42,413 bases of DNA, from positions 1-42,413 of the forward strand of contig SVHA01000014.1 of the NCBI GenBank assembly GCA_015056085.1, given 5' to 3'. The stretch is from Clostridiales bacterium. Lineage in GTDB: Bacteria; Bacillota; Clostridia; Christensenellales; Aristaeellaceae. Positions 1 through 16,447 of the stretch are shown in pieces. How positions within the stretch are numbered: position 1 is the stretch's first letter; every line of letters starts with the position of its first letter. A program made the translations under genes and the position numbers. The notes under the pieces are model-generated. The model was not told where the DNA came from. It was given only the letters and a program-made list of their open reading frames with translations, and searched no databases.

Positions 1-121
<121 letters not shown>

Positions 122-398: not shown

Positions 399-1001
399 TC
401 ATCGTTCGTCTTTTGGGAGCCATTTGACCTGAAATTCCTTCCGGGAAAGGCAAAAATCCCGGCAAGCGGGGCCAAATTTCGCTTCCAGAGCAAAATAGTT
501 TTCAGAATTTTTGAGAAAATTTTGCCTTTTCAGGGCCTGCCGGGCGCAGGCGGGCGACACATACAGCAGCCTGGGCAGGGCGGCGGCGCAATCATCCCCC
601 AAAGTGCGGCGCATCCAATCCACCACGGCAGCGGGTGCCAGCAGGCAGGAAGCGAAGTGGTCCGCTTCCTTTTCATGGGCGTCCGTCATTTCAGCATGAC
701 CCAGAACGATGTGGGCGATTTCGTGGGCGAGGGTGAAATTGCGGCGGGCGGGGTTGCCATCCGCCCGATAGGCCACCACGGTCTGTTCGCCCTGGCGGAT
801 GGTGAAGGCGTCGGCGCCGCCGCAGTCGGCCTCCACCTGGGCAAGGGGCAGATCCAGCGCCGCGGCCATTTCCTCATAGGTATACACCCGAGCCATGGCG
901 GAAAGCAGCGCCAGCGGGCTGACGGGCAGACTGTCCGGCGCTGAACGGAGGAGCAACTCTTCAGCCGCCTGCTGGGCCCTAACGAAATCCGGCGCTGTCA
1001 T
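399..1001 (-). CDS. ImmA/IrrE-family metallopeptidase
   Basis: A 200-residue protein with the zinc-protease motif HEIAH near residue 92 and a downstream acidic EKEADHFA segment that supplies the third zinc ligand, as in ImmA/IrrE (DUF955) proteins. The known role of ImmA in ICEBs1 and related phages is to cleave the partner HTH repressor after DNA damage or quorum signalling and so induce the element. Here its ATG overlaps the stop of the upstream HTH gene by four bases (ATGA), which implies translational coupling and a shared function. It is the last gene of the leftward regulatory unit. Only about 280 bp separate it from the rRNA promoter, and no integrase lies there. Family assignment is firm; the target (the adjacent repressor) is inferred from gene order. 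Confidence 0.92.
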   Translation of the reverse strand: MTAPDFVRAQQAAEELLLRSAPDSLPVSPLALLSAMARVYTYEEMAAALDLPLAQVEADCGGADAFTIRQGEQTVVAYRADGNPARRNFTLAHEIAHIVLGHAEMTDAHEKEADHFASCLLAPAAVVDWMRRTLGDDCAAALPRLLYVSPACARQALKRQNFLKNSENYFALEAKFGPACRDFCLSRKEFQVKWLPKDER

Positions 1002-1330
1002 GCATCCTCCTCCCCGGAAAAGGCATGGGCAAACAGTGCCTTGCCCACCGCCAGCACCTTCTCCTGCTCCTCAGGGGTCATGCGGCCCATGGCCCGGGCC
1101 ATCAGGGTGATGTTCCCCGGCTCTTCCTCCCGGCGGCCGCACAGTTCATCCAGCGTCATGCCGAACAGGTCGGCCAATGCGGTCAGGGTGGGGATATCCG
1201 GCTGACTCTGCCCCCGCTCCCATTTGGAGACGGCCACGGCGGACACGCCCATCCTCTCCCCCAGTTGCTGCTGGGACAGACCCATCCTTTGACGATGCCT
1301 TCTGATTTTTTCAGCGTAGAAATGGCTCAT
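998..1330 (-). CDS. HTH (Cro/CI-type) repressor
   Basis: A 110-residue protein with an N-terminal HTH_3 domain (roughly residues 6-60; GLSQQQLGERMGVSAVAVSKWE carries the two helices). The C-terminal half is probably for dimerisation and contacts with the ImmA partner. I chose the ATG at 1330 because GAGGTGATC lies directly upstream. A longer reading frame exists, but its extra N-terminus would lie upstream of the promoter. It is transcribed leftward from the promoter at 1349-1377 and is coupled to the ImmA gene. By analogy with ImmR-ImmA pairs it should repress the divergent phage-operon promoter, where a perfect palindrome (1428-1442) overlaps the -10/start region. The repression target is inference. 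Confidence 0.92.
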   Translation of the reverse strand: MSHFYAEKIRRHRQRMGLSQQQLGERMGVSAVAVSKWERGQSQPDIPTLTALADLFGMTLDELCGRREEEPGNITLMARAMGRMTPEEQEKVLAVGKALFAHAFSGEEDA

Positions 1331-1348
1331 ATTGATCACCTCAGCTCC

Positions 1349-1377
1349 ATTATATAACTTCCAGTTTAATTTTTCAA
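1349..1377 (-). promoter_or_regulatory. Promoter of the repressor/ImmA unit
   Basis: Minus strand: TTGAAA (1377-1372), 17-bp spacer, TATAAT (1354-1349). Transcription would start near 1342, giving only about a dozen leader bases before the repressor ATG, just enough for the GAGGTGATC ribosome binding site. Confidence 0.85.
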
Positions 1378-1400
1378 GGGATTTTTCGAAAATTTTCCCC

Positions 1401-1429
1401 TTGACACGAACATATTTTCGCATTATAAT
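1401..1429 (+). promoter_or_regulatory. Rightward promoter of the phage operon
   Basis: TTGACA (1401-1406), 17-bp spacer, TATAAT (1424-1429): a full consensus vegetative promoter. It reads into the regulator gene at 1480 and is divergent from the repressor promoter. Such a strong promoter would need repression to keep the phage genes silent; the palindrome at 1428-1442 is the likely site. Confidence 0.88.
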
Positions 1430-1442
1430 AACCTCAGGTTAT
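1428..1442. promoter_or_regulatory. Probable operator (perfect palindrome)
   Basis: ATAACCT-C-AGGTTAT is a perfect 7+1+7 inverted repeat that overlaps the last bases of the -10 box and the expected start site of the rightward promoter. Its position suits a repressor operator; the likely ligand is the HTH protein at 998-1330. A second short palindrome (TTTTCGAAAA/GAAAATTTTC, about 1384-1396) lies between the two promoters and may be a further site. Confidence 0.65.
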
Positions 1443-1479
1443 CACGAGAACAGCCGTTCTCTTGTGAAGGAGGCACTGT

Positions 1480-1947
1480 ATGACTGATTTTGAAACTTTG
1501 CAGACCTATCGGGAGCTGGTGCTGGAGCTGCAGGAACTGGAAGAGCAGCTTCGCCTGTGCGGCACCAACGGCGGCCCCCGGGGATATGCTGCCTTCCGCC
1601 CCGACACCCTCCCCGGGACGAATGATCCCGCAGCGGCAGCGCTGCAGCTGGCGGACGGCCTGGAAGCCATGGCGGCAAGAAAGCGGGCGGAGCTGGCCCG
1701 ACTGGCGCCGGAGATCAGCCGCATCACGGGAAGAATCACCCAGGTGAAGATGTTCACCGTCATCCATCAATATTATGTGCTGGCCCGCTGCACGGCGGAT
1801 ATTGCCGACTTCCTGCTGATTACTCCCCGGAGCGTCAATCGCCTCAAGCACCAGTTTCAGCAGGAACTGGAACGTGCTGAAAGGCACGCTTCCTCCCCTG
1901 TCCCGGCCTGTCCCACGCTGTCCCCCCATTTCCCTTCATGTCCGTGA
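1480..1947 (+). CDS. Phage late-gene regulator, sigma-like/DUF1492 type
   Basis: A 155-residue protein: N-terminal alpha-helical region with charged, Glu/Leu-rich heptads (about 5-25 and 60-85), then a C-terminal helix-turn-helix resembling a sigma region 4 (CTADIADFLLITPRSVNRLK, about residues 108-127). Proteins of this DUF1492/ArpU/RinA-like class sit just before the terminase genes in many Firmicutes prophages and control late transcription. The start has a good GAAGGAGG site. The last codons, encoding a Pro/Ser/Cys-rich tail, coincide with the 10-bp-phased TGTCC array, so the gene's 3' end doubles as a regulatory site. The class is inferred from HTH, size and location; the precise mechanism (activator, sigma factor or antiterminator) cannot be read from sequence. 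Confidence 0.75.
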   Translation: MTDFETLQTYRELVLELQELEEQLRLCGTNGGPRGYAAFRPDTLPGTNDPAAAALQLADGLEAMAARKRAELARLAPEISRITGRITQVKMFTVIHQYYVLARCTADIADFLLITPRSVNRLKHQFQQELERAERHASSPVPACPTLSPHFPSCP

Positions 1948-1964
1948 ATGTCCTTGACTTGTCC
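1899..1964 (+). repeat. Phased TGTCC repeat array upstream of the late promoter
   Basis: TGTCC occurs at 1899, 1909, 1919, 1939, 1949 and 1960, with a one-mismatch copy (TTTCC) at 1929. This gives seven copies almost exactly 10 bp apart, all on one face of the helix, ending in the spacer of the promoter at 1954-1983. The arrangement is what a multi-site activator array would look like. The adjacent regulator (1480-1947) is the obvious candidate ligand. Confidence 0.75.
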
Positions 1965-1983
1965 CTATGGACCGTGATATGAT
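1954..1983 (+). promoter_or_regulatory. Probable late promoter before terminase
   Basis: TTGACT (1954-1959), 18-bp spacer, TATGAT (1978-1983), directly after the regulator stop codon. The spacer is one base longer than ideal and contains the last TGTCC copy within an inverted GTCC-ctat-GGAC. A suboptimal promoter preceded by phased repeats suggests activator dependence. The start would fall near 1990. Confidence 0.65.
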
Positions 1984-2021
1984 GGCACCGTGGAAAACAG
2001 AACAAACATTCCCCTAACGAT

Positions 2022-2051
2022 ATGCGACCGGATTTATCCGGCCGCATTTTT
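2022..2051 (+). terminator. Leader terminator between late promoter and terminase
   Basis: Arms 2022-2033 and 2036-2047 (ATGCGACCGGAT / ATCCGGCCGCAT) pair over 12 positions with one A-C mismatch and are followed by TTTTT (2047-2051). It lies about 30-60 nt after the presumed late start site and before the small terminase. It would therefore make a ~60-nt RNA unless read through. It could equally close the upstream regulator transcript. Confidence 0.7.
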
Positions 2052-2123
2052 GTTGCGGGAAAATGTTGGGCTGGAGGTGAGACGCCATGTTTTCCGCAGA
2101 GAAATCAGGAAAGGAGGAAACCC

Positions 2124-2354
2124 ATGCCGGACGATCGGATGAACAAAACGGACATTGCCACACCCCAGGAAGTGTTGGAGACCTTCACCGCTCTGATGCG
2201 GGGAGAAAAGCCTGCTGAACAGATGAAGGCTGCTGAAACCCTCGCCAAGCATTATGGTCTTCTGACGCCCCGGGAAGACGCCGTTGTCCGGCCCGAGATC
2301 GCCCAGGAGATCGAGGCAGCCATGGCGGAGTTGCCCGATCCACCCCTGCCATGA
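2124..2354 (+). CDS. Small terminase-like protein lacking the DNA-binding domain
   Basis: A 76-residue protein. The start at 2124 follows AAAGGAGGAAACCC. Its core (PQEVLETFTALMRGE ... MKAAETLAKHYGLL) matches the oligomerisation part of Terminase_2/XtmA small subunits. The N-terminal helix-turn-helix that normally binds pac/cos DNA in these ~150-residue proteins is absent. The same frame upstream to 2022 contains no HTH. The stop overlaps the large-subunit ATG by four bases (ATGA), as usual for a terS-terL pair. Role: ring that presents DNA to, and regulates, the packaging motor. Assignment rests on a short region plus position. Loss of the HTH suggests little or no packaging-site specificity. 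Confidence 0.65.
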   Translation: MPDDRMNKTDIATPQEVLETFTALMRGEKPAEQMKAAETLAKHYGLLTPREDAVVRPEIAQEIEAAMAELPDPPLP

Positions 2355-3586
2355 ATCGCCGCGCCCTCCGGCTGCTGGCGGAGCATCCTGCTCAGGTGGC
2401 ACGGTGGTGCGGCCTGAGCCTCATTAGGGACGACATTCACAACGACTGGATGCGCCTGATGATCACCGGGCGGGAGGACATGACCCTGCTTGCTCACCGG
2501 GGCAGCTACAAGACCACCTGCCTGGCCATGAGCATGGTAATCATGATGCTGGTGTATCCCTCAAAGAACATTCTTTTTCTGCGCAAGACCGATGACGATG
2601 TGGTGGAAGTCATCAGGCAGGTGAAACAGCTCATTGCCTGCCCTGCCATCCACACCTTGTCAGAAAAACTCTACGGAACGGCCGTCCGCTTGCGTAAAAG
2701 TGATATGTTCTGCGTGGTGACGGACTGCTATTGCCCCGTCCGGGGTGCGCCGCAGCTGCTGGGACAGGGCACCCGGTCATCCCTGACGGGCAAGCACGCC
2801 GACATCATCATCACCGATGACATCGTCAACCTCCAGGACCGCATCAGCCCCGTGGAGAGGGAGCGCATCAAGGGCGTGTATCAGGAACTTCAAAACATCC
2901 GCAATCCCGGCGGGCGCATCATCAACACCGGCACGCCGTGGCACCCGCAGGACGCCATCTCCCTGATGCCCAACATCCTGCGCTACGACTGCTACACCAC
3001 AGGGCTTCTCACCCAGGAAGAGCTGCAGCGCCTCCGCCAGGCGATGGCGCCGTCGCTGTTTGCGGCGAATTACGAACTGCAGCACATCGCCCAGGAAGAC
3101 GCCCTGCTGACCCAGCCGCCCCGCTACATAAGCGACGCTTCCCTGCTCCGGGATGGCATCGCCCATGTGGATGCGGCCTACGGCGGACAGGATTACACCG
3201 CCCTGACCTGTGCCAAGCGTCTGGGAGATGAGGTGGTTCTGCTGGGCAAACTGTGGCGAAAGCCGGTGGATGACGTGATGCCGGAGATCCTCAGCATCTG
3301 TAATGAGCACCTGTGCGCTCCCATCTTTGTGGAAACTAACGGCGACAAGGGGTATCTGGCCCGGGAACTACGCCGGGAAGGCGCGCTGGTGCGGCCCTAT
3401 CACGAGCAGATGCCCAAGGCCACCAAGATTGCCGCCTATCTGCGAAAGTGGTGGCCCCATGTCACCCTGCTGGAAGGCACCGACCCTGATTACACCGCCC
3501 AGCTGATGGACTATACGCCCTTTGCCGCCCATGATGATGCGCCGGATTCCGCCGCCTGCGCACTGCGGCTGCTGGACAAGACCTGA
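2351..3586 (+). CDS. terL: Phage terminase large subunit
   Basis: A 411-residue packaging motor. The ATPase domain shows a degenerate Walker A (AHRGSYKTT, residues 48-56) typical of this terminase group and a Walker B with catalytic acid (DIIITDD, 151-157). The C-terminal RNase H-like nuclease begins around residue 270 (HVDAAYGGQDYTAL), with a further acidic ETNGDKG segment near 330. The length is at the short end of the usual 400-500 residues, but both domains are complete. It is translationally coupled to the small subunit. It translocates DNA into the procapsid through the portal and cuts it when full. Confidence 0.93.
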   Translation: MNRRALRLLAEHPAQVARWCGLSLIRDDIHNDWMRLMITGREDMTLLAHRGSYKTTCLAMSMVIMMLVYPSKNILFLRKTDDDVVEVIRQVKQLIACPAIHTLSEKLYGTAVRLRKSDMFCVVTDCYCPVRGAPQLLGQGTRSSLTGKHADIIITDDIVNLQDRISPVERERIKGVYQELQNIRNPGGRIINTGTPWHPQDAISLMPNILRYDCYTTGLLTQEELQRLRQAMAPSLFAANYELQHIAQEDALLTQPPRYISDASLLRDGIAHVDAAYGGQDYTALTCAKRLGDEVVLLGKLWRKPVDDVMPEILSICNEHLCAPIFVETNGDKGYLARELRREGALVRPYHEQMPKATKIAAYLRKWWPHVTLLEGTDPDYTAQLMDYTPFAAHDDAPDSAACALRLLDKT

Positions 3587-3603
3587 TTGTAAGGAGGAAA
3601 CCC

Positions 3604-4953
3604 ATGTTTACGCTCGTCACCTGGCAGGATTACCTCGCTGCCGATGACAAATTCGCCCTGGTGGAAAAGGCCATTCAATCCTACAAGGATTCCAGGGAGT
3701 TTTCCACGGCACTGGATGCCGCCAGTTACTTCCGGGGCGAAAATCCCACCGTGGCCCGCAAGACGATTTTGAGGGCCCGCAAAATGGAAGGCCGGGACGC
3801 CGCCGGCAGGCGCCGCGTGCGCCTGACCACCGAGGATGTGGTGGGAAACAGGATTCCCAGCGCCTTTTTCTACCGTTTCGTCACCCAGCAGAATCAGTTT
3901 CTGCTCTCCGAGGGCGCCATTCTCCCCGACCTGCATCGGGACGCCCTGGGGCCGGACTTCGGCCGGTGCCTTTCCCTGATGGGGGAAAAGGCCCTCATCC
4001 ACGGCTGCTGCTGGGGATACTGGAACGGCGACCATCTGGAGATCATCGAAGCCGCCCGCAACCCCTACTCCGGCTTTTTCCCGCTGGTGGATGAAATCAC
4101 CGGCGAGGTGATGCTGGGCGTGCAGTTCTGGCAGATCGCTCCGGAAAAGCCCATGTACATCCGCCTGTTTGAAATGGATGGCGTGACGGTGATGCGCCTT
4201 GAAGGCAAAGACCTGCAAATCGTCCATCCCAAGCGGGCCTACCGCATCCAGACCCGCAAGGACATTCTGGGCGAGGAAATCTGCCATCAGGAGAATTACG
4301 ACGCCCTGCCGGTGATTCCCCTGTATGCCAACAGCGAATGCCGCAGCGAACTGACCCCTGCCATCCGGGCGAAGATCGACGCCTATGACAACATCCTCTC
4401 CGACTTTGGCGACAACCTGGACAGGGCCAATGACGTCTACTGGGTGCTGAACAACTTCGGCGGCACCAGCGACGACATTGCGGAGATGCTGGAGGAGATC
4501 AACCGCATCAAGGCGGTGGCGAATCTCTCCGACGGCACGGGCAATGCCGCCACGGCGGAGCCCCACACCATTGAGGTGCCCTATCACGCCAGGCAATCCG
4601 CCCTGCAACTGCTGGAAAAGGAGCTGTATCAGGACTACATGGCGCTGGACATGGACGCCCTCACCGGCTCCAGCCTGACCAATGTGGCTATCCACTGCGC
4701 CACCGCCAACCTCAACCTGAAGGCGGATCGCTACGAGTGGCAGGTGCGCCAATTCATCAGCCGGCTGATTGATCTGCTGGGTCTGCCCGCTGCGGCGGTA
4801 TCTTTCCGCCGGCAGTGGATCGCCAACGAAAGCGAGATGGTGGCAGACATCGCCGCCATGCGCCCGGACATCGACCGCCGCACCGCCCTGCAGCTCAATC
4901 CCTACATCCGCCCGGAAGACATCCCGGCGCTGCTGGCATCCGCCCCCAATTAA
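3604..4953 (+). CDS. Phage portal protein (SPP1 gp6-like)
   Basis: A 449-residue portal subunit, preceded by AAGGAGGAAACCC and 17 bp after terL. Recognisable features are the N-terminal segment with YFRGENPTVARK, the central DLQIVHPKRAYRI beta region, and the long helical section around DAYDNILSDFGDNLDRANDVYWVL, followed by the MDALTGSSLTNVAI stretch. These match the SPP1 gp6/phage_prot_Gp6 family. Twelve copies form the DNA channel at one capsid vertex and dock the terminase. The gene is intact. No SPP1 gp7-like minor head protein follows it, unlike many relatives. Confidence 0.9.
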   Translation: MFTLVTWQDYLAADDKFALVEKAIQSYKDSREFSTALDAASYFRGENPTVARKTILRARKMEGRDAAGRRRVRLTTEDVVGNRIPSAFFYRFVTQQNQFLLSEGAILPDLHRDALGPDFGRCLSLMGEKALIHGCCWGYWNGDHLEIIEAARNPYSGFFPLVDEITGEVMLGVQFWQIAPEKPMYIRLFEMDGVTVMRLEGKDLQIVHPKRAYRIQTRKDILGEEICHQENYDALPVIPLYANSECRSELTPAIRAKIDAYDNILSDFGDNLDRANDVYWVLNNFGGTSDDIAEMLEEINRIKAVANLSDGTGNAATAEPHTIEVPYHARQSALQLLEKELYQDYMALDMDALTGSSLTNVAIHCATANLNLKADRYEWQVRQFISRLIDLLGLPAAAVSFRRQWIANESEMVADIAAMRPDIDRRTALQLNPYIRPEDIPALLASAPN

Positions 4954-4980
4954 CCCTCAACCGAAAGGAGACAGAAGCAC

Positions 4981-5544
4981 ATGTCACTGACCCGCAGGCA
5001 ACTCAAAGCACTGAATCTGGAAGAATCCGCCATTGAAGAAATCATCTCTGCCCATGTCAAAACCGTGGACGACATCCGCCAGGAACGCGACGCACTGCTC
5101 AAAGAGGCGGAAGAACTCCGCGCAAAGACCGCCGAGATGGACCGCATGGCAGATGAATCCGCCCGTGTGACGGCGGAATACGACGCCTACCGTCAGGAGG
5201 TCATGCGGCAGGCACATCAGGAAAAGGCCAAAGCGCATCTGCGCACTGCCCTGCTGGATGCAGGCGCCAACGAGAAGGCCATTCCCCTTTTGATGCACGC
5301 CCTTGACCCCGACGCCCTCACCTTTGAAGGAGACACGCCCGTCAACACCGCCGATCTCATCGGCCCCGTCAAAGCAGCGTACGGGGACTTCTTTTCCAGA
5401 AAAACCTGCCTGCCCACGCCGCCCATCGCACCGCCTTCCCCCACCCAGGGGATGCTCACCTGCGATGACATTCGCCGCATGAGCGAATCCGATATTCTCA
5501 ACAACTGGAGCGCCGTGCGCTCCGCACTGACGAAAGGAGTCTAA
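4981..5544 (+). CDS. Phage scaffolding protein (gp20-like)
   Basis: A 187-residue protein dominated by a coiled coil (residues ~10-80: Glu/Lys/Arg-rich heptads such as ERDALLKEAEELRAKTAEMD), then a helical, less charged C-terminus ending RSALTKGV. Size, coiled coil and position between portal and major capsid match the phage minor structural GP20/scaffold family, which guides procapsid assembly and then leaves. It has a good AAAGGAGA site 10 bp upstream. No separate head maturation protease is present, so the scaffold would have to exit without proteolysis. Confidence 0.85.
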   Translation: MSLTRRQLKALNLEESAIEEIISAHVKTVDDIRQERDALLKEAEELRAKTAEMDRMADESARVTAEYDAYRQEVMRQAHQEKAKAHLRTALLDAGANEKAIPLLMHALDPDALTFEGDTPVNTADLIGPVKAAYGDFFSRKTCLPTPPIAPPSPTQGMLTCDDIRRMSESDILNNWSAVRSALTKGV

Positions 5545-5549
5545 GATTT

Positions 5550-6359
5550 ATGTCTGTTCTGAGCTTTATTCCCCAGGTCTGGTCCGCCCGTCTGCAGGAG
5601 TCCCTGCACAAGTCCCTGGTTTTCGGCAACCTGTGCAACCGCAACTGGGAGGGTGTCATCACCAAGTACGGCGACACCGTGCACATCAACAATCTGGCGG
5701 ACATCACCGTCAAGCCCTACACCCCCAACGTGGACATCGATGATCCCGAGGAGCTGTCCACCACTGACACCACCATGACCATCAACCACGCCGCCTACTA
5801 CAACTTTTACATCAACGACGTGGACGCCGCCCAGGCCCGCACCGACCTGATGGAAGCTGCCATGCGCAACGCCGCCATCAAGCTGGCCGAGGACACGGAA
5901 GACTACATTCTGGGCGTCATCCGCACCCATGCGGGCACCCAGACCACCGGCCCCATCCCCGCAGGCGGCGTGTATGAGCTGCTGGTGAACATCAAGACCG
6001 CCATGGACGACCTGAACGTGCCCCGCGTCGGCCGCAAGCTGGTTGTGCCTCCCTCTGTGGAAGGTCAGCTGCTGCTGGACAACCGCTTCATCACCGGCAA
6101 CGGCGCCATCTCCGACGCCCGCCTGGCGGAAGGCAGTATCGCCCGTGCCGTGGGCTTTGACATCTACATCAGCAGCGACCTGAGCGATGAAATCATCGCC
6201 ATGACCTCCGACGGCGTGACCTTCGCCCAGCAGCTGAGCGAAATCGAGGCCTATCGCCGTGAAAAGGGCTTTGATGACGGCGTGAAGGGCCTGTCCCTGT
6301 GCGGCGCCAAGGTCGTCATTCCCGACTGTGTGTACATCCACACCATCACCAAGGAATAA
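5550..6359 (+). CDS. Major capsid protein
   Basis: A 269-residue protein, five bases after the scaffold gene. The N-terminus (FIPQVWSARLQESLHKSLVF) and the P-domain-like segment with NRNWEGVITKYGDTVHI and DPEELSTTDTTM match the P22-coat/gp5-like group of HK97-fold major capsid proteins. The C-terminal part (FDIYISSDLS ... KGLSLCGAKVVIPDCVY) is the usual A-domain end. It would form the icosahedral shell. At 269 residues it is near the short end for the fold. The frame is clean, and its codon use is as GC-rich as that of neighbouring host genes. Confidence 0.88.
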   Translation: MSVLSFIPQVWSARLQESLHKSLVFGNLCNRNWEGVITKYGDTVHINNLADITVKPYTPNVDIDDPEELSTTDTTMTINHAAYYNFYINDVDAAQARTDLMEAAMRNAAIKLAEDTEDYILGVIRTHAGTQTTGPIPAGGVYELLVNIKTAMDDLNVPRVGRKLVVPPSVEGQLLLDNRFITGNGAISDARLAEGSIARAVGFDIYISSDLSDEIIAMTSDGVTFAQQLSEIEAYRREKGFDDGVKGLSLCGAKVVIPDCVYIHTITKE

Positions 6360-6373
6360 AGGAGGCGTCACTT

Positions 6374-6817
6374 TTGTCCCTGAGCATTGCCGACATCATG
6401 CGATCCATCCGCAATCACTTTGTGACCGGTCAGGTTTTGACTGGTGAGTGGACCGCAAAGGACGGCGTGCTGACCGGACCTGAAACGCTCCCTCCCAACG
6501 GCTGGATCGCCGTGACGGGCTCAAACGCCTGCCGCGGCGTATTCCGCCTGGAGGAGGGCAGCGTTTTGGGCGGGATGGCGGACGGGAACTGGACGGGCAG
6601 CGTCCATCTCCTGTCCCCGCCCGGGGATTTCCTCGCCCTGTGCGAGGAGATCATCCTCTGGGAAGCCGCCCACAAAAGCACCGCCGCCCAGGAATCCTTC
6701 GGCGCTTACAGCCGCCGGGAAGCCCTGCGCCCCGATGGTCTGCCCCTGACGTGGGAGGACGCTTTCGCCTCCCGCCTGCGCCCATGGCGCAGGATGTTTC
6801 AGGAGGTGGACGTCTGA
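6374..6817 (+). CDS. Head-tail connector protein
   Basis: A 147-residue protein with a TTG start at 6374, set by AAAGGAGG eight bases upstream. The first residues (SLSIADIMRSIRNHFVTG) form a helix of the kind seen in gp6/gp15-type adaptors. Position directly after the capsid and its size suggest the head-completion/adaptor ring between portal and tail. I recognise no strong family motif, so the function is mainly positional. It abuts the next gene with no gap. Confidence 0.6.
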   Translation: MSLSIADIMRSIRNHFVTGQVLTGEWTAKDGVLTGPETLPPNGWIAVTGSNACRGVFRLEEGSVLGGMADGNWTGSVHLLSPPGDFLALCEEIILWEAAHKSTAAQESFGAYSRREALRPDGLPLTWEDAFASRLRPWRRMFQEVDV

Positions 6818-7165
6818 GTGCTGACTGATTATTTCATCCCCTTTGTGCACCTGGAAAAGAGCACCACATCCGACGGCCTGGGCGGCGTTTCCACCCTGTG
6901 GACGGAAGGCGTGACCTTTCAGGGGAACATCACCGCCGTGTGCGGCAGCGCAAAGAAAGACCCCGCCCGTCACCTGAAGGTGACCCCCACGCTGGTGCAT
7001 GAATACGACGTGACCCTCACCCCCGGCGATATCGTCCGCCGGGTGCATGACGGCGCCCTGTTTCGGGTCATGGCCGCCTCCAGCGACTTCCGCACGCCGG
7101 AGGTCGCCGCCACCCTCTATGCCCAGGTGCCGGTGGAAAGGCTGGTGAACGACTCATGGATGTAA
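6818..7165 (+). CDS. Head-tail adaptor / head closure protein
   Basis: A 115-residue protein with a GTG start immediately after the preceding TGA; AGGAGG lies 12 bases upstream. The sequence is beta-rich, with a conserved-looking core (KVTPTLVHEYDVTLTPGDIVRR.HDGALFRV) like SPP1 gp16/phage head-tail joining proteins. It probably plugs the portal after packaging and forms the tail docking surface. Its end overlaps the next start by ten bases. Confidence 0.65.
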   Translation: MLTDYFIPFVHLEKSTTSDGLGGVSTLWTEGVTFQGNITAVCGSAKKDPARHLKVTPTLVHEYDVTLTPGDIVRRVHDGALFRVMAASSDFRTPEVAATLYAQVPVERLVNDSWM

Positions 7166-7533
7166 AGCGGATGTTCCGGGCACTGACGGACTTCTTTGCG
7201 CCCCTGGGGCTGCCTGTGTATGTAAGGGGTGCAGAGCCTCTTCACCCTGATTGCCCCTTTCTGCTTCTGGAACCTGCCCTGCCCGCCCCCAACAGCCATG
7301 CGCCGCTGACCTTCACCGGCTGGTTTTCCGGCGAAAGCGCCCACATCAATCGGCTGGATTTTTCCACCGCCGCGGGGCTGCTCATCCCCGAAGGCGGGGC
7401 CCTTTTGCCCCTTGATGAAGAGGACCGCATGGTGGCCGCTGTGTATCCGGCGCAAAATTTCGCCGTGCCCACTTCCAGCGGAGAAATGCAGGGCATGAAG
7501 ATGAAGGCGGAGATGTATGTCTACACCCTGTAA
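7156..7533 (+). CDS. Tail completion / tail terminator-like protein
   Basis: A 125-residue protein overlapping the previous gene. The N-terminal helix (MDVKRMFRALTDFFAPLG) followed by a beta-rich body ending MKMKAEMYVYTL resembles minor tail/tail-completion proteins, which sit between the adaptor genes and the tail tube gene in siphophages. It would cap the tail tube and join it to the head. The assignment is from order and secondary-structure pattern, not a clear motif. Confidence 0.55.
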   Translation: MDVKRMFRALTDFFAPLGLPVYVRGAEPLHPDCPFLLLEPALPAPNSHAPLTFTGWFSGESAHINRLDFSTAAGLLIPEGGALLPLDEEDRMVAAVYPAQNFAVPTSSGEMQGMKMKAEMYVYTL

Positions 7534-7557
7534 CCGAACTGGAAAGGAGGCAGCCCC

Positions 7558-8133
7558 TTGCTGCATCAGATGACCGCCCGCACCCTGAGCCAGTTGACGC
7601 TGGGTGCAGGCGTTTTTTTATCCGATTTTCCCCTCACCGCCACTTCCCTGGAACAACTGCGGGAACAGGTGGCCCAGGCCATCCAGGACCCGCAGAAATA
7701 CCTGGGACAGACCACCGGCAAGGGGGAATTCCGCTGCGTACCGCAGATTCGTTCCCTGGGGGAGGCCGGTCAGCGCACCCCCACCCCCTGGGACACCCTC
7801 GTCGACGGCTGGACCGTGACCCTTTCCGGCACCCTGACTTCTTCAGGCGCAGAATCTTTCCTGCGCCTGCTGCCCGGCTGGGAGGAAGAAACCGCCGGGC
7901 GCATCACCACCCTGACCTGCCCGGGGTGCGTGCCCTTCCCCATGAAGGATGTGTGCTGGGTGGGAGACACCTCCGCCGGGCTGGCATGCATCCATCTGCA
8001 TCAGGCGCTGCATCTCAAAGGCGCTGCGCTGACGCTGATGGATCAGGGCGCCGCGACCCTCCCCTTTTCCTTTCAGGTCCGCCACATGGGCACGGATTTG
8101 CCCCTGCCTGTGACGGTGGCCTTCTTTTCCTGA
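7558..8133 (+). CDS. Major tail (tube) protein
   Basis: A 191-residue protein with a TTG start preceded by AAAGGAGG. It is beta-rich throughout, including WDTLVDGWTVTLSGTLTS, the type of strand/loop seen in tail-tube subunits of the lambda gpV/SPP1 gp17 fold. It is the last gene before the point where tail chaperones and the tape-measure gene would be expected; instead there are only about 90 bp before the distal tail gene. Function is by position and size. Confidence 0.6.
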   Translation: MLHQMTARTLSQLTLGAGVFLSDFPLTATSLEQLREQVAQAIQDPQKYLGQTTGKGEFRCVPQIRSLGEAGQRTPTPWDTLVDGWTVTLSGTLTSSGAESFLRLLPGWEEETAGRITTLTCPGCVPFPMKDVCWVGDTSAGLACIHLHQALHLKGAALTLMDQGAATLPFSFQVRHMGTDLPLPVTVAFFS

Positions 8134-8147
8134 CAGGAGGTGCCGGA

Positions 8148-8225
8148 TTGAACCCGATTTTCCCCATGGCTGCCCTCCGGCAGCATGAATTCCCCCATCC
8201 CCTGACAAGGAGGCGCATGGCATGA
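8148..8225 (+). CDS. 25-residue open frame where tail chaperone/tape measure should be
   Basis: A TTG codon with AGGAGG upstream opens a 25-residue frame (MNPIFPMAALRQHEFPHPLT, then RRRMA). Its last codons contain the AAGGAGG site of the next gene, and its stop overlaps that gene's ATG (ATGA). It may be a coupling leader peptide or the scar of a deletion joining the start of a chaperone gene to the end of the tape-measure gene. No homology is recognisable; whether it is translated is uncertain. Confidence 0.4.
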   Translation: MNPIFPMAALRQHEFPHPLTRRRMA

Positions 8226-8995
8226 GAACGCAATTTGCCGTCTGGCTGGACGGCATCGGCCTGCAGGACCTGGATCCCCGCATCTATGTGACGGATGTGG
8301 AGGAAGCCCCGCTGCAAACGAAGCAGCACCTCCACCCCCGGCTGAGCAGCGGCGGGATGTTTGCCTCCCCTGCCCTGCGCCAGAAACTGACCGTCACCGT
8401 TCACTTTCTGATTCACGAGTCCGACCCCATCCGCCGCAAGCGCCTGCTGATGCAGGTATCCGCCTGGGCGCAACGGGGCAGCACCCTCACGGTGAGCGAC
8501 AGGCCCCATCAGCAGCTCCATGTGCAGGCGGAAACCCTGCCCGCCATGGCGTCCTCCCTGAAATGGACGGACCCGCTGTCTTTGACCTTCGCTGCCTGCG
8601 CCTACCCTTGGTGGGAAGAAATCGTCCCGGTATCTCTCACCCTCCTAAGCGGCGAAACGGCGGCGATGCACCTGCCGGGCACGTCGGCCCATGTGCCTGT
8701 CAGCGTGAATGCTGTCAATACTTCCGGCGGAACCATCAGCAGCCTGACCCTCACCTGCGGCGAGACGACCCTCACGCTGGAAGGCCTCGCCTGGGCAAAC
8801 GGCGAGGAACTGCTCATCGGCCCGGACAGCCTTGGCCTGATGACCATGACCGTGGGCGGTCGGAATGCAGCCTCCTGTCGCACGCCCCAAAGCAGCGACT
8901 GGCTGCTGATTCCCTGCGGTGCTCCGGCGACCATCAGCGTTTCCTGTGAAAGGAACGTTGCCGTGACCGTATCTGCAAAGGGGGCATGGGTATGA
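8222..8995 (+). CDS. Distal tail protein (Dit-like)
   Basis: A 257-residue protein. The N-terminal half (IGLQDLDPRIYVTDVEE ... RQKLTVTVHFLIHESDP) has the pattern of Dit/phage-tail-component proteins that form the hub at the end of the tube. The C-terminal half is a beta-sandwich of the galectin/carbohydrate-binding type common in Dit (HVPVSVNAVNTSGGTI). Position before the Tal-like gene agrees. It overlaps the next gene by four bases (ATGA). Confidence 0.75.
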   Translation: MRTQFAVWLDGIGLQDLDPRIYVTDVEEAPLQTKQHLHPRLSSGGMFASPALRQKLTVTVHFLIHESDPIRRKRLLMQVSAWAQRGSTLTVSDRPHQQLHVQAETLPAMASSLKWTDPLSLTFAACAYPWWEEIVPVSLTLLSGETAAMHLPGTSAHVPVSVNAVNTSGGTISSLTLTCGETTLTLEGLAWANGEELLIGPDSLGLMTMTVGGRNAASCRTPQSSDWLLIPCGAPATISVSCERNVAVTVSAKGAWV

Positions 8996-10995
8996 TGCGT
9001 TTGCCCCGGCTGCTGGACGGGCAGATGAACGAAATCGCCCGCCTGCAGCCCTCCTCCCTGCAGATAAACCTGACCCTCAGCGGCCTGTCCACCGCAGTGA
9101 TGACGCTGCCTGACACGAATGTGCTGATATCCCTGAGGCAATTCGTGGAACTGTACACCTCAGACGGCAGCGCCGGCATCTTCCGTATCAGCGGTGTTGA
9201 AGCCGGGCCGGAATCAGGCGTCAAAATCACCATGCAGCACGGCCTTTGCACCCTGTCTGATCACCTGATGCCCGGGGAAGGCAGCGCCTTTTCCACCGCC
9301 GAAAACATTCTCTCGCAGATGCTGGACCTTCAGGGGGATAACGCCCTGTGGCGCCTGGGGGACGCCGCTGACACCGGGGACATCCACTGGTCCTGGGACA
9401 GCAGCAACCTGCTGGTCTCCCTGTTTGACCTGATGGAGGAACTGCCCGGTTACTTCCTGAAGTGGGATCAGTCGTCCCTGCCCTGGAAGCTGCACCTGAT
9501 GTCCCCCGAAAACGACGATGACCTGTGCGAAGCGAGGCTGTCCCGCAACGTCACAGGGCTGTCCATTCACCGGGATGATTCCGCCCTGTGCACCCGGCTG
9601 TATGTGGGGGATTATCCCACCCCCATCGATGCGGACACGCAAAGCGCCTGGGGCGTCATCAGCCGCAGAGTGACCCTGCGGGAAGAACTCACCTATGCCC
9701 AGCAGGAAACCCTCGCCCGGGCCTGGCTGGAAGCCCACAAGCATCCCCGCCTGACCGTCACCATTGATGCAGCCGCCCTTTCTTCCCTGACGGGCTGTCC
9801 GCTGGACGAATTTTCTCCCGGCAGGATGTGCCGTGTCTGCCTGCCGGAAGAGGGCGTTTCGCTGACCCAGCGCATCGTCGCCCTGAAGTACCCTGACCTC
9901 GTGTCCGACCCCCACAAGGTGCAGGTGGTTTTGTGTAACGACGCCCCAAACCCCGGTGCTTCCCTGTCGGGGCTGGAAGTCACCGCCGCCGTGTTCCGCC
10001 AGAAGGTACGCAAGCGCCTCAAATACTGCACTGATCGAATCGACGTGGTCACCGACACCCTCACTCTGCAAGCGGAATCGCTGGACGCCGTCATCGACGA
10101 AATGTCCGTCCAGTCCAACGACATCTCCATCCTCACCAGAGACCTCGACCTGCAGGCGAAGGAGATTTCCACCCAGGCGGAACGGATTGACACTGTGGCG
10201 GAAGATGTTTCCACACAAGCGCAGCGCATCACAACGCAGGCCCAGCGGATTGACACCGTGGCCGAGGACATCAGCACCCAGGCCAATCGCATCACGACAG
10301 AAGCCGGGCGCATTGACACGCTGACCAATAACCTGAACACCCAGGCCGGGAAGATCAACACCCAAGCCGGGCGCATCACCACGCTGACCAACAACCTGAA
10401 CACCCAGGCCGGAAAGATCAACACCCAAGCCGGACAGATCACCACGCTGACCAACAATTTGTCCACGCAGGCAGGACGGATTGATACGCTGGCGGAGGAC
10501 ATCAGCACCCAGGCAGAGCGAATCGACACCCTTGCCAATGACGTATCTGTTCATGCGCAGAATCTGACGGCCATCACCGACACGCTGACGCTGCACACAA
10601 GCACGCTGGATCTGAAGGCGGACAAGGTGACGCTGGACGCCAACATCACTGCGGTGGGCAAGTTTTTCACCGGTGAAACCAAGGCGGAAGTCATCAGGGC
10701 CAGTACCATCAACACCGAGGACCTGTGGGTGACCAATGACTCCCATTTTGCCTTGCTGACGGCGGATACCTTCGTGGTTTCCGGCACCGTGGTGGTGGGA
10801 GACATCGATGTGACGTGGAAAGAGGTTTCCGCCATCACGGGCATTACCATGCCCTCCTACAGCGTGCAGACGTCCACCATCAATTACATCAACACCAGCG
10901 GACAGGCAGCCTCGAAAACGGTGGTCACCGGCATCAGCCGTGACAGCACCGGCGGTCTGACCCGCACGACCCTCAAATATCTGGGAGGCAACTGA
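8992..10995 (+). CDS. Tail-associated (Tal-like) protein with coiled-coil fibre
   Basis: A 667-residue protein. Residues ~1-340 are the gp27-like hub/tail-associated region (beta-rich, with FVELYTSDGSAGIFRISG and FSPGRMCRVCLPEEG). Residues ~384-523 are an almost perfect seven-residue repeat (TQAGRID-TLTNNLN-TQAGKIN style), predicting a long parallel trimeric coiled coil. The C-terminus (GETKAEVIRASTINTEDLWV ... RTTLKYLGGN) is a beta-rich tip. I prefer the ATG at 8992: it overlaps the Dit stop (ATGA), and AAAGGGGG is correctly spaced for it but too close to the in-frame ATG at 8986. The role would be tail tip, cell contact and penetration. The DNA of the coil contains 63-bp tandem repeats. Confidence 0.8.
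   Translation: MMRLPRLLDGQMNEIARLQPSSLQINLTLSGLSTAVMTLPDTNVLISLRQFVELYTSDGSAGIFRISGVEAGPESGVKITMQHGLCTLSDHLMPGEGSAFSTAENILSQMLDLQGDNALWRLGDAADTGDIHWSWDSSNLLVSLFDLMEELPGYFLKWDQSSLPWKLHLMSPENDDDLCEARLSRNVTGLSIHRDDSALCTRLYVGDYPTPIDADTQSAWGVISRRVTLREELTYAQQETLARAWLEAHKHPRLTVTIDAAALSSLTGCPLDEFSPGRMCRVCLPEEGVSLTQRIVALKYPDLVSDPHKVQVVLCNDAPNPGASLSGLEVTAAVFRQKVRKRLKYCTDRIDVVTDTLTLQAESLDAVIDEMSVQSNDISILTRDLDLQAKEISTQAERIDTVAEDVSTQAQRITTQAQRIDTVAEDISTQANRITTEAGRIDTLTNNLNTQAGKINTQAGRITTLTNNLNTQAGKINTQAGQITTLTNNLSTQAGRIDTLAEDISTQAERIDTLANDVSVHAQNLTAITDTLTLHTSTLDLKADKVTLDANITAVGKFFTGETKAEVIRASTINTEDLWVTNDSHFALLTADTFVVSGTVVVGDIDVTWKEVSAITGITMPSYSVQTSTINYINTSGQAASKTVVTGISRDSTGGLTRTTLKYLGGN
10321..10461 (+). 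repeat. 63-bp tandem repeat in the tail fibre coding region
   Basis: Unit 1 at 10321-10383 and unit 2 at 10384-10446 differ at only a few positions; a partial third begins at 10447 (CTGACCAACAAT). Each unit encodes three seven-residue coiled-coil repeats, so unit gain or loss changes fibre length by 21 residues without a frameshift. Confidence 0.85.
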
Positions 10996-10997
10996 CC

Positions 10998-11159
10998 ATG
11001 ACTGAATCCATGCTCGTAACCCTCAAGGCCATGCGCCGCACCCTCAATCAGGTGGAAGTGTGCGGCGAACACAACCTGAACTGCCTGCTGGCGTCCATTC
11101 AGGCGCTGGAAAAACTCATCAGCGAAGGGGAACTGCCCCAGGAGGTGAACCATGACTGA
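10998..11159 (+). CDS. Small phage tail-module protein (53 aa)
   Basis: A 53-residue, mostly helical protein that starts MTESMLVTLKAMRRTLNQVE and ends PQEVNHD. It lies two bases after the Tal-like gene and overlaps the next gene by eight bases. Its last codons carry that gene's AGGAGGTGA site, so the frame is under coupling constraint. Comparable short helical proteins occur at this place in many Firmicutes prophages, but I know no function for them. The internal pattern (VEVCGEHNLNCLLASIQALEKLI) suggests an amphipathic helix. Confidence 0.7.
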   Translation: MTESMLVTLKAMRRTLNQVEVCGEHNLNCLLASIQALEKLISEGELPQEVNHD

Positions 11160-11535
11160 ACTGACCCCCACCTGCCTCACCTTTGAAACAGAGATGACCA
11201 GCGGCCTGTCGCTGCAGATCATCCGGACGCTGTTTCTTCAGGGCGATCAGCAGGCCCACCAGCTGAAGGTGAACCTCACAAATGACGGCGAGCCCTGCGA
11301 CCTGGCGGGCTGCACCGTTTCCGGGCTGATGCAGCGCTCGGACGGCACCACCCTGCCCATGACCGGCGAGGTTTCCGGCGGCGCTGCCTGCCTGACGCTC
11401 CCCGCCCAGGCCTACGCCGTGCCGGGCCGCTTCCTGCTGAGTATGCAGGTGGCCAAGGGCGCCATGACCTGCACCGTGCTGCTGGCGGAAGGCGCCGTCA
11501 CTGCCACCCGCACCGCCTGTGTGCTGGGAGAATAA
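11152..11535 (+). CDS. Baseplate upper protein-like (BppU N-terminal type)
   Basis: A 127-residue beta-rich protein. The pattern QGDQQAHQLKVNLTNDGEPCDLAGCTVSGLMQRSDG resembles the Ig-like N-terminal domain of BppU/DUF2479 proteins, which attach receptor-binding parts to the baseplate. No receptor-binding extension is present, so it may be a stand-alone adaptor. AGGAGGTGAACC precedes the ATG. Family assignment is moderate. Confidence 0.6.
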   Translation: MTELTPTCLTFETEMTSGLSLQIIRTLFLQGDQQAHQLKVNLTNDGEPCDLAGCTVSGLMQRSDGTTLPMTGEVSGGAACLTLPAQAYAVPGRFLLSMQVAKGAMTCTVLLAEGAVTATRTACVLGE

Positions 11536-11604
11536 CCCCATGACACACAGGACGTCCACCATTCATCTGATGTACTGAGAAGGAAAAGAAAGGAGGAATG
11601 TGCC

Positions 11605-12360
11605 GTGAGCACTGTATCCCTGTCCGCATGGCTTCAGGCGCTGGACCAGATCGAAGCCTCGGCGCCCACGTATCGCCTGGGCGGCGACGGCTCCGACGGC
11701 ACCTGCGACTGCATCGGGCTGTTGATCGGCGGGCTGAAAAGAAACGGCGTCACCTGGCCGGGCATCCACGGCAGCAACTGGGCCGCCCGCAATGTGATCA
11801 GGGCCCTGTCGCCCATCACCGGCAGCGATGACCTCGCCGTGGGCGATGTGGTTTTCAAGGCCCGGTCTCCCGGTGATGTGGGCTACAGCCTACCTGACCG
11901 ATATGCCGATCACCCCGACCGGCTGGATTATTATCACGTGGGCGTGGTGAGACAGGTTTCGCCCCTGGAAATCATGCACTGCACCACCCCCGGCATCCGG
12001 CGGGATACCCGCCTGGGCGCCTGGGCGTGGAAGGGCCGCCTCACGCTGATTCAGCAGGAGGACGCCTCTCCCCTGCGCCATGCCCTTGTCACCGCTGCCA
12101 CCGGCTCCACCGTCAACCTGCGCCGCACGCCCGATGGCGCACTGGTGGTGCGTGTGCCCGTGGGCGAAACGGTGACCCTTCACGAAACCAGCGGCATCTG
12201 GAGCCGCATCACCTGGCACACCCATTCCGGGTGGATGAAAACCGCTTTCCTGTCCCCTGAAGAGGAAGTGCAGGAAACCCCGCTGACGCTGACGGCCCTT
12301 CAGGAGCGCATCGCCCGGCTGGAAAACCGGGTGACGGCGCTGGAGGAGGCGTCCGGCTGA
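11605..12360 (+). CDS. NlpC/P60 endolysin with SH3 domain
   Basis: A 251-residue protein with a GTG start and AAAGGAGG upstream. The catalytic domain has the NlpC/P60 cysteine in CDCIGLLIGG (about residue 35) and the histidine in YYHVGVV (about residue 113). An SH3_3 domain follows (~165-220, STVNLRRTPDGALVVRVPVGE), then a short coiled coil (LQERIARLENRVTALEE). Such proteins cut the gamma-D-Glu-diamino acid bond of peptidoglycan; here it is the phage lysis enzyme, next to holin genes. It has no signal peptide, so export needs the holin. Its stop overlaps the next start (TGATG). Confidence 0.9.
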   Translation: MSTVSLSAWLQALDQIEASAPTYRLGGDGSDGTCDCIGLLIGGLKRNGVTWPGIHGSNWAARNVIRALSPITGSDDLAVGDVVFKARSPGDVGYSLPDRYADHPDRLDYYHVGVVRQVSPLEIMHCTTPGIRRDTRLGAWAWKGRLTLIQQEDASPLRHALVTAATGSTVNLRRTPDGALVVRVPVGETVTLHETSGIWSRITWHTHSGWMKTAFLSPEEEVQETPLTLTALQERIARLENRVTALEEASG

Positions 12361-12578
12361 TGTCATCCGACCTGATCGTAGCCGTTGTTTCCGGCGTATG
12401 CACGCTGCTGGGCAGTTGTCTGGGCGTGATTGCCTCGTCCCGCCTGACCCAGTATCGCATCCGCCGCCTGGAAGAAACCGTCAGCCGGCACAACCAGCTC
12501 ATCGAGCGCACTTATCGCCTGGAAGGCCAGATGTCCGAAGTGCAGCATGATCTGCGGGACCTGAAAAGCCGCCGCTGA
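12360..12578 (+). CDS. XhlA-like/holin-associated membrane protein
   Basis: A 72-residue protein with one membrane segment at residues ~5-27 (IVAVVSGVCTLLGSCLGVIA) and a charged coiled-coil tail (RIRRLEETVSRHNQLIERTY ... EVQHDLRDLKSRR). Single-span proteins with a coiled tail beside endolysin and holin are typical of XhlA-type lysis accessories. It is coupled to the endolysin gene by a TGATG overlap. Confidence 0.7.
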   Translation: MSSDLIVAVVSGVCTLLGSCLGVIASSRLTQYRIRRLEETVSRHNQLIERTYRLEGQMSEVQHDLRDLKSRR

Positions 12579-12604
12579 CGAAACATCACAAAAAGGAGTT
12601 GCCC

Positions 12605-12835
12605 ATGAATATCAACTGGAAAATCCGCATGAAAAACAAGGTATGGCTGACGGCGCTTTTCTCCGCCGCCGTGTCCTTTGTGTTTGACCTGCTGGCGCTG
12701 TTTGACATTGCGCCGGCGCTGACCCAGGAGGGCGTGATGAGCGCCCTGTCCGCCCTGCTGACGCTGCTGACTGCCCTGGGCGTGGTGATCGACCCCACCA
12801 CTCCCGGCGTACAAGACGTTTCGCAAAAGTGCTGA
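12605..12835 (+). CDS. Phi LC3-family holin
   Basis: A 76-residue protein. The N-terminal INWKIRMKNKVWLTALF, two hydrophobic segments (~13-37 and ~47-65) and the DPTTPG motif near the end are the hallmarks of the phi LC3 holin family. AAGGAG six bases upstream selects the ATG at 12605. The family consensus normally continues with a LSDS-like tail; here the reading ends VQDVSQKC inside a hairpin repeat (12821-12849), so the C-terminus looks replaced. It is the last phage gene of the block. Confidence 0.88.
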   Translation: MNINWKIRMKNKVWLTALFSAAVSFVFDLLALFDIAPALTQEGVMSALSALLTLLTALGVVIDPTTPGVQDVSQKC

Positions 12836-16399: not shown

Positions 16400-16447
16400 G
16401 GTAACATTCCTCTCTTTTGTGTGGTTTTCCCACACCTACTCCAATAT

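Follow-up and report, generated by a model that had tools for sequence, protein, structure and literature searches.

Contig SVHA01000014.1 of a Clostridiales bacterium (assembly GCA_015056085.1), analysed here over its full 42,413 nucleotides (the window), carries at positions 399-12835 a 12.4 kb block of 18 open genes that runs from an ImmA gene and a repressor to a holin and resembles the particle-forming part of a phage. The question raised by this locus is whether these genes are the residue of a prophage or a phage particle that has been taken over by the host. We favor a domesticated, vertically inherited phage-particle operon of the gene transfer agent (GTA) type, predicted to be under SOS control, and place its probability at roughly three in four. 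The particle genes are old, intact, apparently co-regulated, split between loci in some species and unable to travel as a unit, which argues for a GTA-like function for the host. A preliminary description, made from the sequence of the window, had proposed the same reading, and the common site, intact genes, purifying selection and largely congruent trees reported below lend it support. Few such systems are known in Gram-positive bacteria.

Organization of the block

The source genome (G000, the block being on contig C7) comprises 2.08 Mb in 26 contigs and is 94.8% complete. As positions 1-121 belong to the 5′ end of a minus-strand 16S rRNA gene, and the holin gene ends about 350 bases short of mnmE, the block sits between an rRNA operon and mnmE. 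Minus-strand genes for ImmA and an XRE repressor are followed on the plus strand by g3, the small and large terminase subunits (TerS and TerL), portal, scaffold and capsid, and then by g9-g12, a Dit-like protein, Tal, a BppU_N protein, lysin, g17 and holin. Scans and coordinates bear out the order given in the preliminary description (regulation, packaging, head, tail tip, lysis), with every gene open and with overlaps at TerS/TerL (2351-2354), g10/g11 (7156-7165), Dit/Tal (8986-8995) and lysin/g17 (12360). Its claim that integration and replication genes are missing also stands, as none of the 18 block proteins matched an integrase or replication family in Pfam and PHROGs scans; a contractile-tail sheath family was likewise absent from their matches. 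Base composition is host-like, as had been stated (GC 61.3% in the block, 60.1% in the window rightward of it). The features are as follows.

1..121, minus strand: 5′ end of a 16S rRNA gene, left neighbor at the contig end (Rfam RF00177, 63.3 bits)
399..1001, minus strand: ImmA/IrrE-type metallopeptidase, putative anti-repressor (PF06114, 39.5 bits; homologues in 12 genomes of the genus, this one included)
998..1330, minus strand: XRE/HTH_3 repressor (PF01381, 62.4 bits)
1401..1459, plus strand: predicted g3 promoter, TTGACA-17-TATAAT, with two LexA-like boxes (sequence, scan and relatives)
1408..1419 and 1448..1459: LexA-like boxes at the g3 promoter, the first with one mismatch, the second a perfect GAACN4GTTC
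1480..1947, plus strand: g3, small protein, putative late activator, of a family with a sigma-70 region-4-like helix-turn-helix
1899..1983, plus strand: predicted late promoter with upstream TGTCC-type repeats, -35 TTGACT at 1954-1959 and -10 TATGAT at 1978-1983 (sequence)
2000..2011, plus strand: LexA-like box GAACAAACATTC, one mismatch
2022..2055, plus strand: intrinsic-terminator-like hairpin between the late promoter and TerS
2124..2354, plus strand: putative TerS, 76 aa (phrog_51, E 7e-5; family alignment)
2351..3586, plus strand: TerL (phrog_38, E 8e-66)
3604..4953, plus strand: portal, SPP1 gp6 type (PF05133, 77 bits)
4981..5544, plus strand: capsid scaffold (PF06810, 43 bits)
5550..6359, plus strand: major capsid protein, HK97-type fold (phrog_267, E 1.6e-51; PDB 8e16)
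6374..6817, plus strand: g9, connector/head protein (Chenonceau "head protein", E 8.7e-21)
6818..7165, plus strand: g10, connector protein (phrog_17977, function unassigned, E 2.8e-11; Chenonceau gene, E 2e-15)
7156..7533, plus strand: g11, connector/tail completion (Chenonceau "head protein", E 1.3e-6)
7558..8133, plus strand: g12, major tail (tube) protein (Chenonceau major tail protein, E 1.2e-23)
8222..8995, plus strand: Dit-like tail-tip protein (phrog_5577 minor tail protein, E 0.031; family alignment)
8986..10995, plus strand: Tal, prophage tail endopeptidase family, with a long coiled-coil repeat (PF06605, 43 bits)
11152..11535, plus strand: BppU_N-domain protein, putative baseplate/receptor binding (PF10651, 28 bits)
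11605..12360, plus strand: putative lysin (weak match in the window; the relative in G008 matches endolysins, best E 2e-17)
12360..12578, plus strand: g17, small protein preceding the holin (phrog_1863, function unassigned, E 7e-12)
12599..12835, plus strand: holin (PF04531, 72 bits)
13188..14540, plus strand: mnmE, host gene, right neighbor (TrmE_N and MnmE_helical)

The matches of g9 and g12 to Flavonifractor phage Chenonceau come from family hidden Markov models run against 23 phage proteins; g9 and g11 had no match in Pfam or PHROGs. The capsid matched PDB 8e16 (phage Che8) by sequence profile at E 5.9e-47 and had the same entry first in its fold list. Tail-tube and connector proteins top the list for the predicted fold of g12 (mean pLDDT 76.9), with no match below E 0.001. 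We name the gene at 8222..8995 Dit-like by its position, and g17, also by position, is presumably XhlA-like. The same element is carried in IMG/VR as viral contig L280 (99.99% identity over 11,367 bases), which shows that such systems get filed as viruses.

A common site and vertical descent in the genus

The genomes of the genus are metagenome-assembled genomes (MAGs), 68-96% complete, whose assemblies break at rRNA operons. TerL was present in 19 of 100 relatives, including 16 of the 18 genomes of the genus, always in single copy and without stops, and the TerL proteins of the other 15 are 59-69% identical to that of the window. The preliminary description had proposed a search for the block at the same locus in related genomes, and adjacency to the rRNA leader was indeed found: contigs end within it in 14 of 16 cases (the window by Rfam, 13 by BLAST, two through merely 17-18 bases). 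The G015 contig is a fifteenth that starts inside the leader, as judged by eye, and that of G014 stops too early. A fixed adjacency to mnmE was considered and dropped, the constant neighbor being the rRNA side. On another contig of G013 (L111:164-655), a lysin fragment 59% identical to the window lysin lies upstream of mnmE, so the G013 element may still end beside mnmE. In G016 (L031:10111-12403), two genes of 178 and 587 aa are inserted between the holin and the gene preceding mnmE.

Lengths are nearly constant across the genus for TerL (411-429 aa), portal (446-457) and capsid (267-271), with the scaffold variable (145-198). Slightly early ends, a few residues before the aligned end, were seen for ImmA in G010, for g3 in four genomes, and for portal and capsid in G012. 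A tree of eight element genes shared 8 of 13 splits with the host tree, where 20,000 leaf shuffles reached at most 4. Mantel tests on 13 of the 18 genes gave uncorrected p values of 0.001-0.016 against mnmE, 0.001-0.029 against rpoB and 0.001-0.074 against valS; for these distances host markers were bounded by tblastn. Genes on the contigs were called by codon usage, with some genes missed. No att-like repeats beyond chance flank the block (longest shared word 9 bases, shuffled mean 8.0).

With a portal profile, 40 of 300 family genomes matched at E<=1e-20. At class level and E<=1e-30 it matched 2 of 391 genomes, the source genome being one of the two. On these counts the lineage looks restricted to part of one family. 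In G019, a relative in another genus (genus g3, not to be confused with gene g3), the portal reading frame is broken in two (L036:4837-6159).

Purifying selection on packaging and head genes

Ratios of nonsynonymous to synonymous substitution rates (dN/dS), the second check that had been proposed, were calculated over the 8 closest pairs for element genes and over 6 of those pairs for host genes. Terminase, portal and capsid are under purifying selection: values were 0.10-0.20 for TerL, 0.12-0.30 for portal and 0.04-0.32 for capsid, compared with 0.10-0.14 for host mnmE. In six pairs of one clade of the genus (clade B), the XRE repressor gave 0.01-0.12. A lysin value of 2.11 (G008-G012) was discarded, as the genes are non-orthologous. 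The TerL motifs HRGSxKT, TDD, DAAYGGxD and DDAPDSAA are identical in all 16 genomes.

For TerS the better start is at 2124, which has a good ribosome-binding site and gives 76 aa; the phrog_51 match, obtained with the longer frame from 2049, covers only profile positions 146-229 of 261. By chosen starts, TerS measures 71-133 aa in the genus and 80-108 aa in the related phages L297, L299 and L302, where other starts would give up to about 134 aa. The missing DNA-binding domain of TerS, which the preliminary description had cited, gives weaker support than stated there and is not diagnostic, because the related phages also appear to have a short TerS; we dropped a short TerS as a GTA hallmark.

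Two loci with a common promoter pattern

In three clade-B genomes (G006, G012 and G015), the tail-tip and lysis genes lie at a second locus, away from the rRNA site, while in G008, of the same clade, all genes are joined at the rRNA site, and the window's own genome has one locus. By families identified on the G012 copy, the second locus adjoins an ABC-transporter ATPase gene pair in all four fetched loci (G004 included), and truA and a cytidine-deaminase-family gene in three of four each, the missing ones falling beyond the fetched stretch or contig end. In G004, a genome 87% complete, this tail locus was found and a head locus was not. No Dit match was found in G003, G013 or G014, whose head contigs are short.

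A 26-base promoter pattern, ATGTCCNNNNNYGTCGTTGNNNGTCM, was derived from element promoters and searched for in 12 whole genomes. It occurs twice each in G006, G012 and G015, once per element locus and nowhere else, once in G008 with its joined element, and once in G004, at the tail locus. The other 7 genomes had none, and a reversed control had none in all 12. What carries information is that those genomes lack the pattern at any other place, since the element sites themselves served to derive it.

The sister genus g81 is divided differently. Capsid was found in 10 of 12 genomes and capsid with portal in 9; the two are on different contigs in 8 of the 9 and about 10 kb apart on the same contig in G100. 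Seven of the nine have a small island in which TerL is followed by the portal gene, together with gene g3 and, where called, repressor, ImmA and TerS (TerL was not seen beside the portal in G100 and G172). Scaffold through lysis genes lie at the other locus, so that the cut point differs from that in clade B. A portal tree groups genus g1, G019 and g81 (support 72), separate from phage contigs and with G046 and G021 outside, which weakly suggests a single domestication. The preliminary description had named a tape measure in close relatives, with the block scattered and decaying, as grounds for rejecting its reading. A miniature tape measure and a division into two loci were indeed found in some species; decay was not, the split pieces being intact, syntenic and joined by a common promoter pattern.

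Beside the tail-tip genes of the second locus, BppU_N-related proteins of about 900 aa are encoded upstream of Dit in G012 (L185:11103-13823) and G006 (L186:9707-12406). This module is variable: in G015 it has 407 aa and follows Tal, and none was called in G004. Part of the genus also has a family of 171-174 aa between the tail protein and Dit (L024:8821-9345, L030:7987-8502, L034:11587-12102), perhaps a tail-assembly protein; the one member scanned had no PHROG match.

Reduction of the tail

No separate tape-measure gene was found in the window, and a profile of 10 tape-measure proteins had no match in the source genome. To this extent the absence noted in the preliminary description holds; close relatives do have a miniature version. 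Tape measures of related phages and prophages have 461 (L302), 464 (L178) and 501 aa (L180), that of Chenonceau has 590 by its record coordinates, and that of L297, cut by the locus end, has at least 685. The clade-B tape measure has 164-167 aa and aligns with both ends of the long form, with about 300 residues between them absent; the G008 copy is 55% identical to L178 over residues 383-464, with a weaker N-terminal match. That of L175 has 113 aa. Altogether 8 of 18 genus genomes matched the profile. The match is the miniature in G006, G008, G012 and G015; longer frames of other tape-measure genes were hit in G002, G006 (C31), G009, G011 and G017 (C45). The remaining 10 had no match, but in four of these (G003, G004, G013 and G014) the element contig is either cut at that place or absent. 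As read from these genes, tape-measure loss is partial and stepwise across the genus.

In addition, no g12 was found between g11 and Dit in G005, G016 and G017. Given the small or missing tape measure and the lost g12, the particles probably have stub tails or nearly none, which would fit the Faecalibacterium GTA (FpGTA) discussed below, on whose capsids no tail was identifiable. The Tal coiled coil (approximately residues 343-532) hits not only three tape-measure PHROGs, at E values between 7e-5 and 5e-3, but also numerous coiled-coil families that are unrelated; we take these matches to be compositional, although this part of Tal may serve as a ruler. L184, a possible Ruminococcaceae relative, was examined and set aside: its layout is that of an ordinary phage, and a frame of 872 codons occupies the expected place of the tape measure.

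Predicted control of the element

The g3 promoter has consensus -35 and -10 elements. In the window, LexA-like boxes lie both inside this promoter and past it; in relatives of both genera they lie past the -10 element. Of the 16 leaders ahead of TerS, 15 contain a LexA-like box with no more than one mismatch, where dinucleotide shuffles predict 1.4. Hairpins resembling terminators occur in 10 of the 16 (1.2 expected) or, under a second rule, in 9 (0.35 expected). Host lexA promoters carry a box, mostly GAACN4GTTT, in 14 of 14 cases examined (1.5 expected). The boxes thus resemble those at host lexA promoters and suggest SOS control; a perfect box was also present at 5 of 8 second loci in g81. 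In 13 genomes, the 100 bases upstream of the late -10 element showed a self-similarity of 0.37 at lag 10 versus 0.24-0.29 at other lags, and the four clade-B tail promoters have repeats and a hairpin in common.

Within the g3 family, 14 of 17 members match TIGR02937 (sigma-70 region 4) at E values up to 1, the best being 1.3e-7; the window's own g3 has no TIGR02937 match. In related phages the terminase is preceded by a phrog_36 regulator, whose direct homology to g3 was weak. A proposed homology of g3 to ArpU was weak (hhalign probabilities of 24% and 4% against two single phage proteins) and was rejected. In L029, L031 and L033 (G005, G016 and G017) no ImmA or repressor was found beside g3, even though these contigs extend to the rRNA leader; this points to control through LexA alone in these genomes.

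These features are consistent with the following course of events. The XRE repressor and LexA would hold down the g3 promoter until DNA damage, through RecA/LexA and through ImmA acting on the repressor, released g3, a putative sigma-region-4-like activator. This protein would act at the repeat-bearing late promoters and allow transcription to continue through the leader terminator. The capsids then formed would be small and have a stub tail or almost none. Since there is no replicating phage genome, TerL would load them with host DNA, nonspecific packaging of such DNA being the property that defines a GTA, and lysin and holin would burst the cell.

Comparison with known systems

By described layout, the closest system to this element, itself known from its genes, appears to be FpGTA (Borodovich et al. 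2026, PMC12946183), for which particles, approximately 9 kb of packaged DNA and proteomics are all experimental. Its capsids are about 40 nm and without identifiable tails; a 10.5 kb operon free of replication genes encodes TerL, portal, scaffold, capsid and a possible TerS in which a DNA-binding domain is not obvious, and a second operon of 5.5 kb, about 125 kb away in one strain, has baseplate, fiber, receptor-binding and lysis genes (PMC12946183). Both hosts are Gram-positive gut anaerobes, and the clade-B cut similarly divides a head locus from a tail-tip and lysis locus. The host lineage differs, however, and the element described here occurs both undivided and in two-locus forms, cut at two different places, with a common promoter pattern. 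The same paper counts FpGTA as the second GTA-like system in Gram-positives, after PBSX, and reports GTA-like packaging in Christensenellaceae in 3 of 25 events; four MAGs (Onthomonas, Gemmiger, Faecalibacterium) are named there as searched for genes (PMC12946183). One of our 31 named loci is titled Christensenellaceae bacterium HAN034 (14 titles mention a ruminant), so a link of the element to those packaging events is possible.

PBSX and PBSX-like regions share with the block SOS control, predicted here, and the order XRE repressor, sigma-like late activator, TerS, TerL, portal (PMC8347963), and PBSX packages host DNA (PMC12946183). They differ in being bactericidal and in spanning about 33 kb (PMC8347963), whereas the block has 12.4 kb, no sheath match and a shrinking tail. 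RcGTA and CcGTA, of Alphaproteobacteria, likewise have a compact structural cluster and several loci, and TerS of RcGTA lacks a specific DNA-binding domain (PMC7947584, PMC11841831). CcGTA combines an activator with anti-termination over a terminator (PMC11150451), and the same control is conceivable here; these systems use GafA and GafYZ as regulators in other hosts, in contrast to the LexA/XRE-type control predicted for the block. A literature search on GTAs in Clostridia, Bacillota and the rumen, with subscription papers and preprints outside its coverage, returned, among the papers listed, no title or abstract opening that describes the element.

Among phages, Chenonceau encodes portal, scaffold, connector and tail proteins of related families, arranged as in the block, although its capsid is not a clear match (E 0.086). 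L302 (IMGVR_UViG_3300018493_000277) is 66% (TerL), 59% (portal), 61% (capsid) and 57% (g12) identical to the closest reference proteins. L302 and Chenonceau have a head-morphogenesis gene, and both, like L297, have a long tape measure; the element has neither. It also lacks the thymidylate synthase of L302 and the HNH endonuclease of L297 found among 10 proteins scanned.

Weighing the explanations

Several observations weigh against a GTA-type operon. The reading is built on genes and not on particles or packaged DNA, and sequence cannot distinguish a GTA from a PBSX-type killer particle. The control steps, g3 activation and LexA/XRE repression, are likewise read from sequence, and no LexA box was found in the four clade-B tail promoters or in 3 of 8 second loci of g81. 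A short TerS may be common to related phages and so gives weak support. TerL is missing from G002, which may have lost the element, and from G004, which retains the tail locus. Five of 13 splits disagree between element and host trees, the latter built from mnmE, rpoB and valS, not all of which were available for every one of the 16 taxa, and Mantel p values against valS were 0.05-0.07 for ImmA, Dit and Tal. Host valS and rpoB are more tightly constrained than the element (dN/dS 0.03-0.05, 6 pairs), constraint is weaker on some element genes (values reach 0.51 for scaffold and, in the pair G016-G017, 0.78 for g11 and 0.51 for Dit), and tail-tip and lysis genes of the tail locus evolve faster (0.28-0.67).

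Nevertheless, as in known GTAs, structural and packaging genes occur without replication or integration genes among the 18 proteins, inheritance is vertical under purifying selection apart from the discordant splits and looser genes, and two loci share a pattern, and by prediction their control, in G006, G012 and G015. A tailocin would have a tail without capsid, portal and terminase; all three are present and conserved, so the preliminary description was right to think it unlikely. PBSX has a contractile tail, and the sheath genes of a PBSX-like region were not matched. The main rival is still a PBSX-like domesticated particle that is induced by the SOS response, packages host fragments and kills relatives without delivering DNA. 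The regulatory layout is that of PBSX-type regions (PMC8347963), tail-tip genes diverge fastest, as target specificity predicts, and domesticated killer prophages are known in solvent-producing clostridia (PMC10538166), where the old domesticated prophages and tailocins described are of a different kind. We nonetheless regard killing as unlikely, because tail parts have been lost while the packaging motor was kept: the tape-measure match is absent from the source genome and 9 others of the genus (4 with the contig cut or missing), g12 is absent at its place in three, and packaging and capsid genes stay conserved, although a killer would need its tail more than its terminase.

An old defective prophage that by chance escaped erosion would account for the missing replication and integration genes and for the broken portal of G019, yet it is very improbable given genes intact in 16 genomes at TerL identities down to 59%, dN/dS well below 1 and a promoter pattern common to split loci. 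The recently deleted prophage that the preliminary description had kept as an alternative fails on similar grounds, the block being intact and single-copy across the genus with dN/dS well below 1. More improbable still is a mobile satellite or minimal prophage that repeatedly inserts at rRNA operons and relies on a helper phage for its packaging. The block does adjoin an rRNA operon, and some genus members have other tape-measure genes in longer frames (e.g., G017:C45 and G006:C31). A phage-inducible satellite would have an integrase and depend on a helper's capsid; here no integrase was matched and no att-like flanking repeat found, the tree is largely host-congruent, capsid, portal and terminase are encoded by the element itself, and the two-locus forms cannot move as a unit. 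Equally slight is the chance of a particle with another host function, such as export of DNA or effectors within kin, since terminase motifs and lysis genes are kept, fitting DNA filling and lytic release.

For the GTA-type operon itself, the evidence is evenly balanced on a wider history, in which a family-level Gram-positive GTA lineage was domesticated before at least the split of g1 and g81. In this history a siphophage operon would have been tamed stepwise. Its tape measure, once of some 460 aa or more, would have shrunk to 113-167 aa before disappearing, some species would have dropped a tail protein, and the operon would have been divided at varying points into two loci held by one SOS-linked activator and promoter repeats. 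Such a system would add another many-species Gram-positive lineage in which the origin of a GTA could be reconstructed step by step. Dispersed genes are listed among the obstacles to finding GTAs (PMC11841831), and the common promoter pattern offers a sequence handle for locating them. If host DNA is packaged, the element would give animal gut communities a permanent channel for gene flow, and such systems could supply the unidentified genes behind the GTA-like packaging in Christensenellaceae (PMC12946183).

Beyond mnmE, the window encodes at 14729-16405 (minus strand) a large protein that had no match in Pfam or PHROGs. It begins with a signal-peptide-like segment followed by LAYLTDTDEAVN, an arrangement that we take to be as in SipW-dependent or TasA-like proteins.

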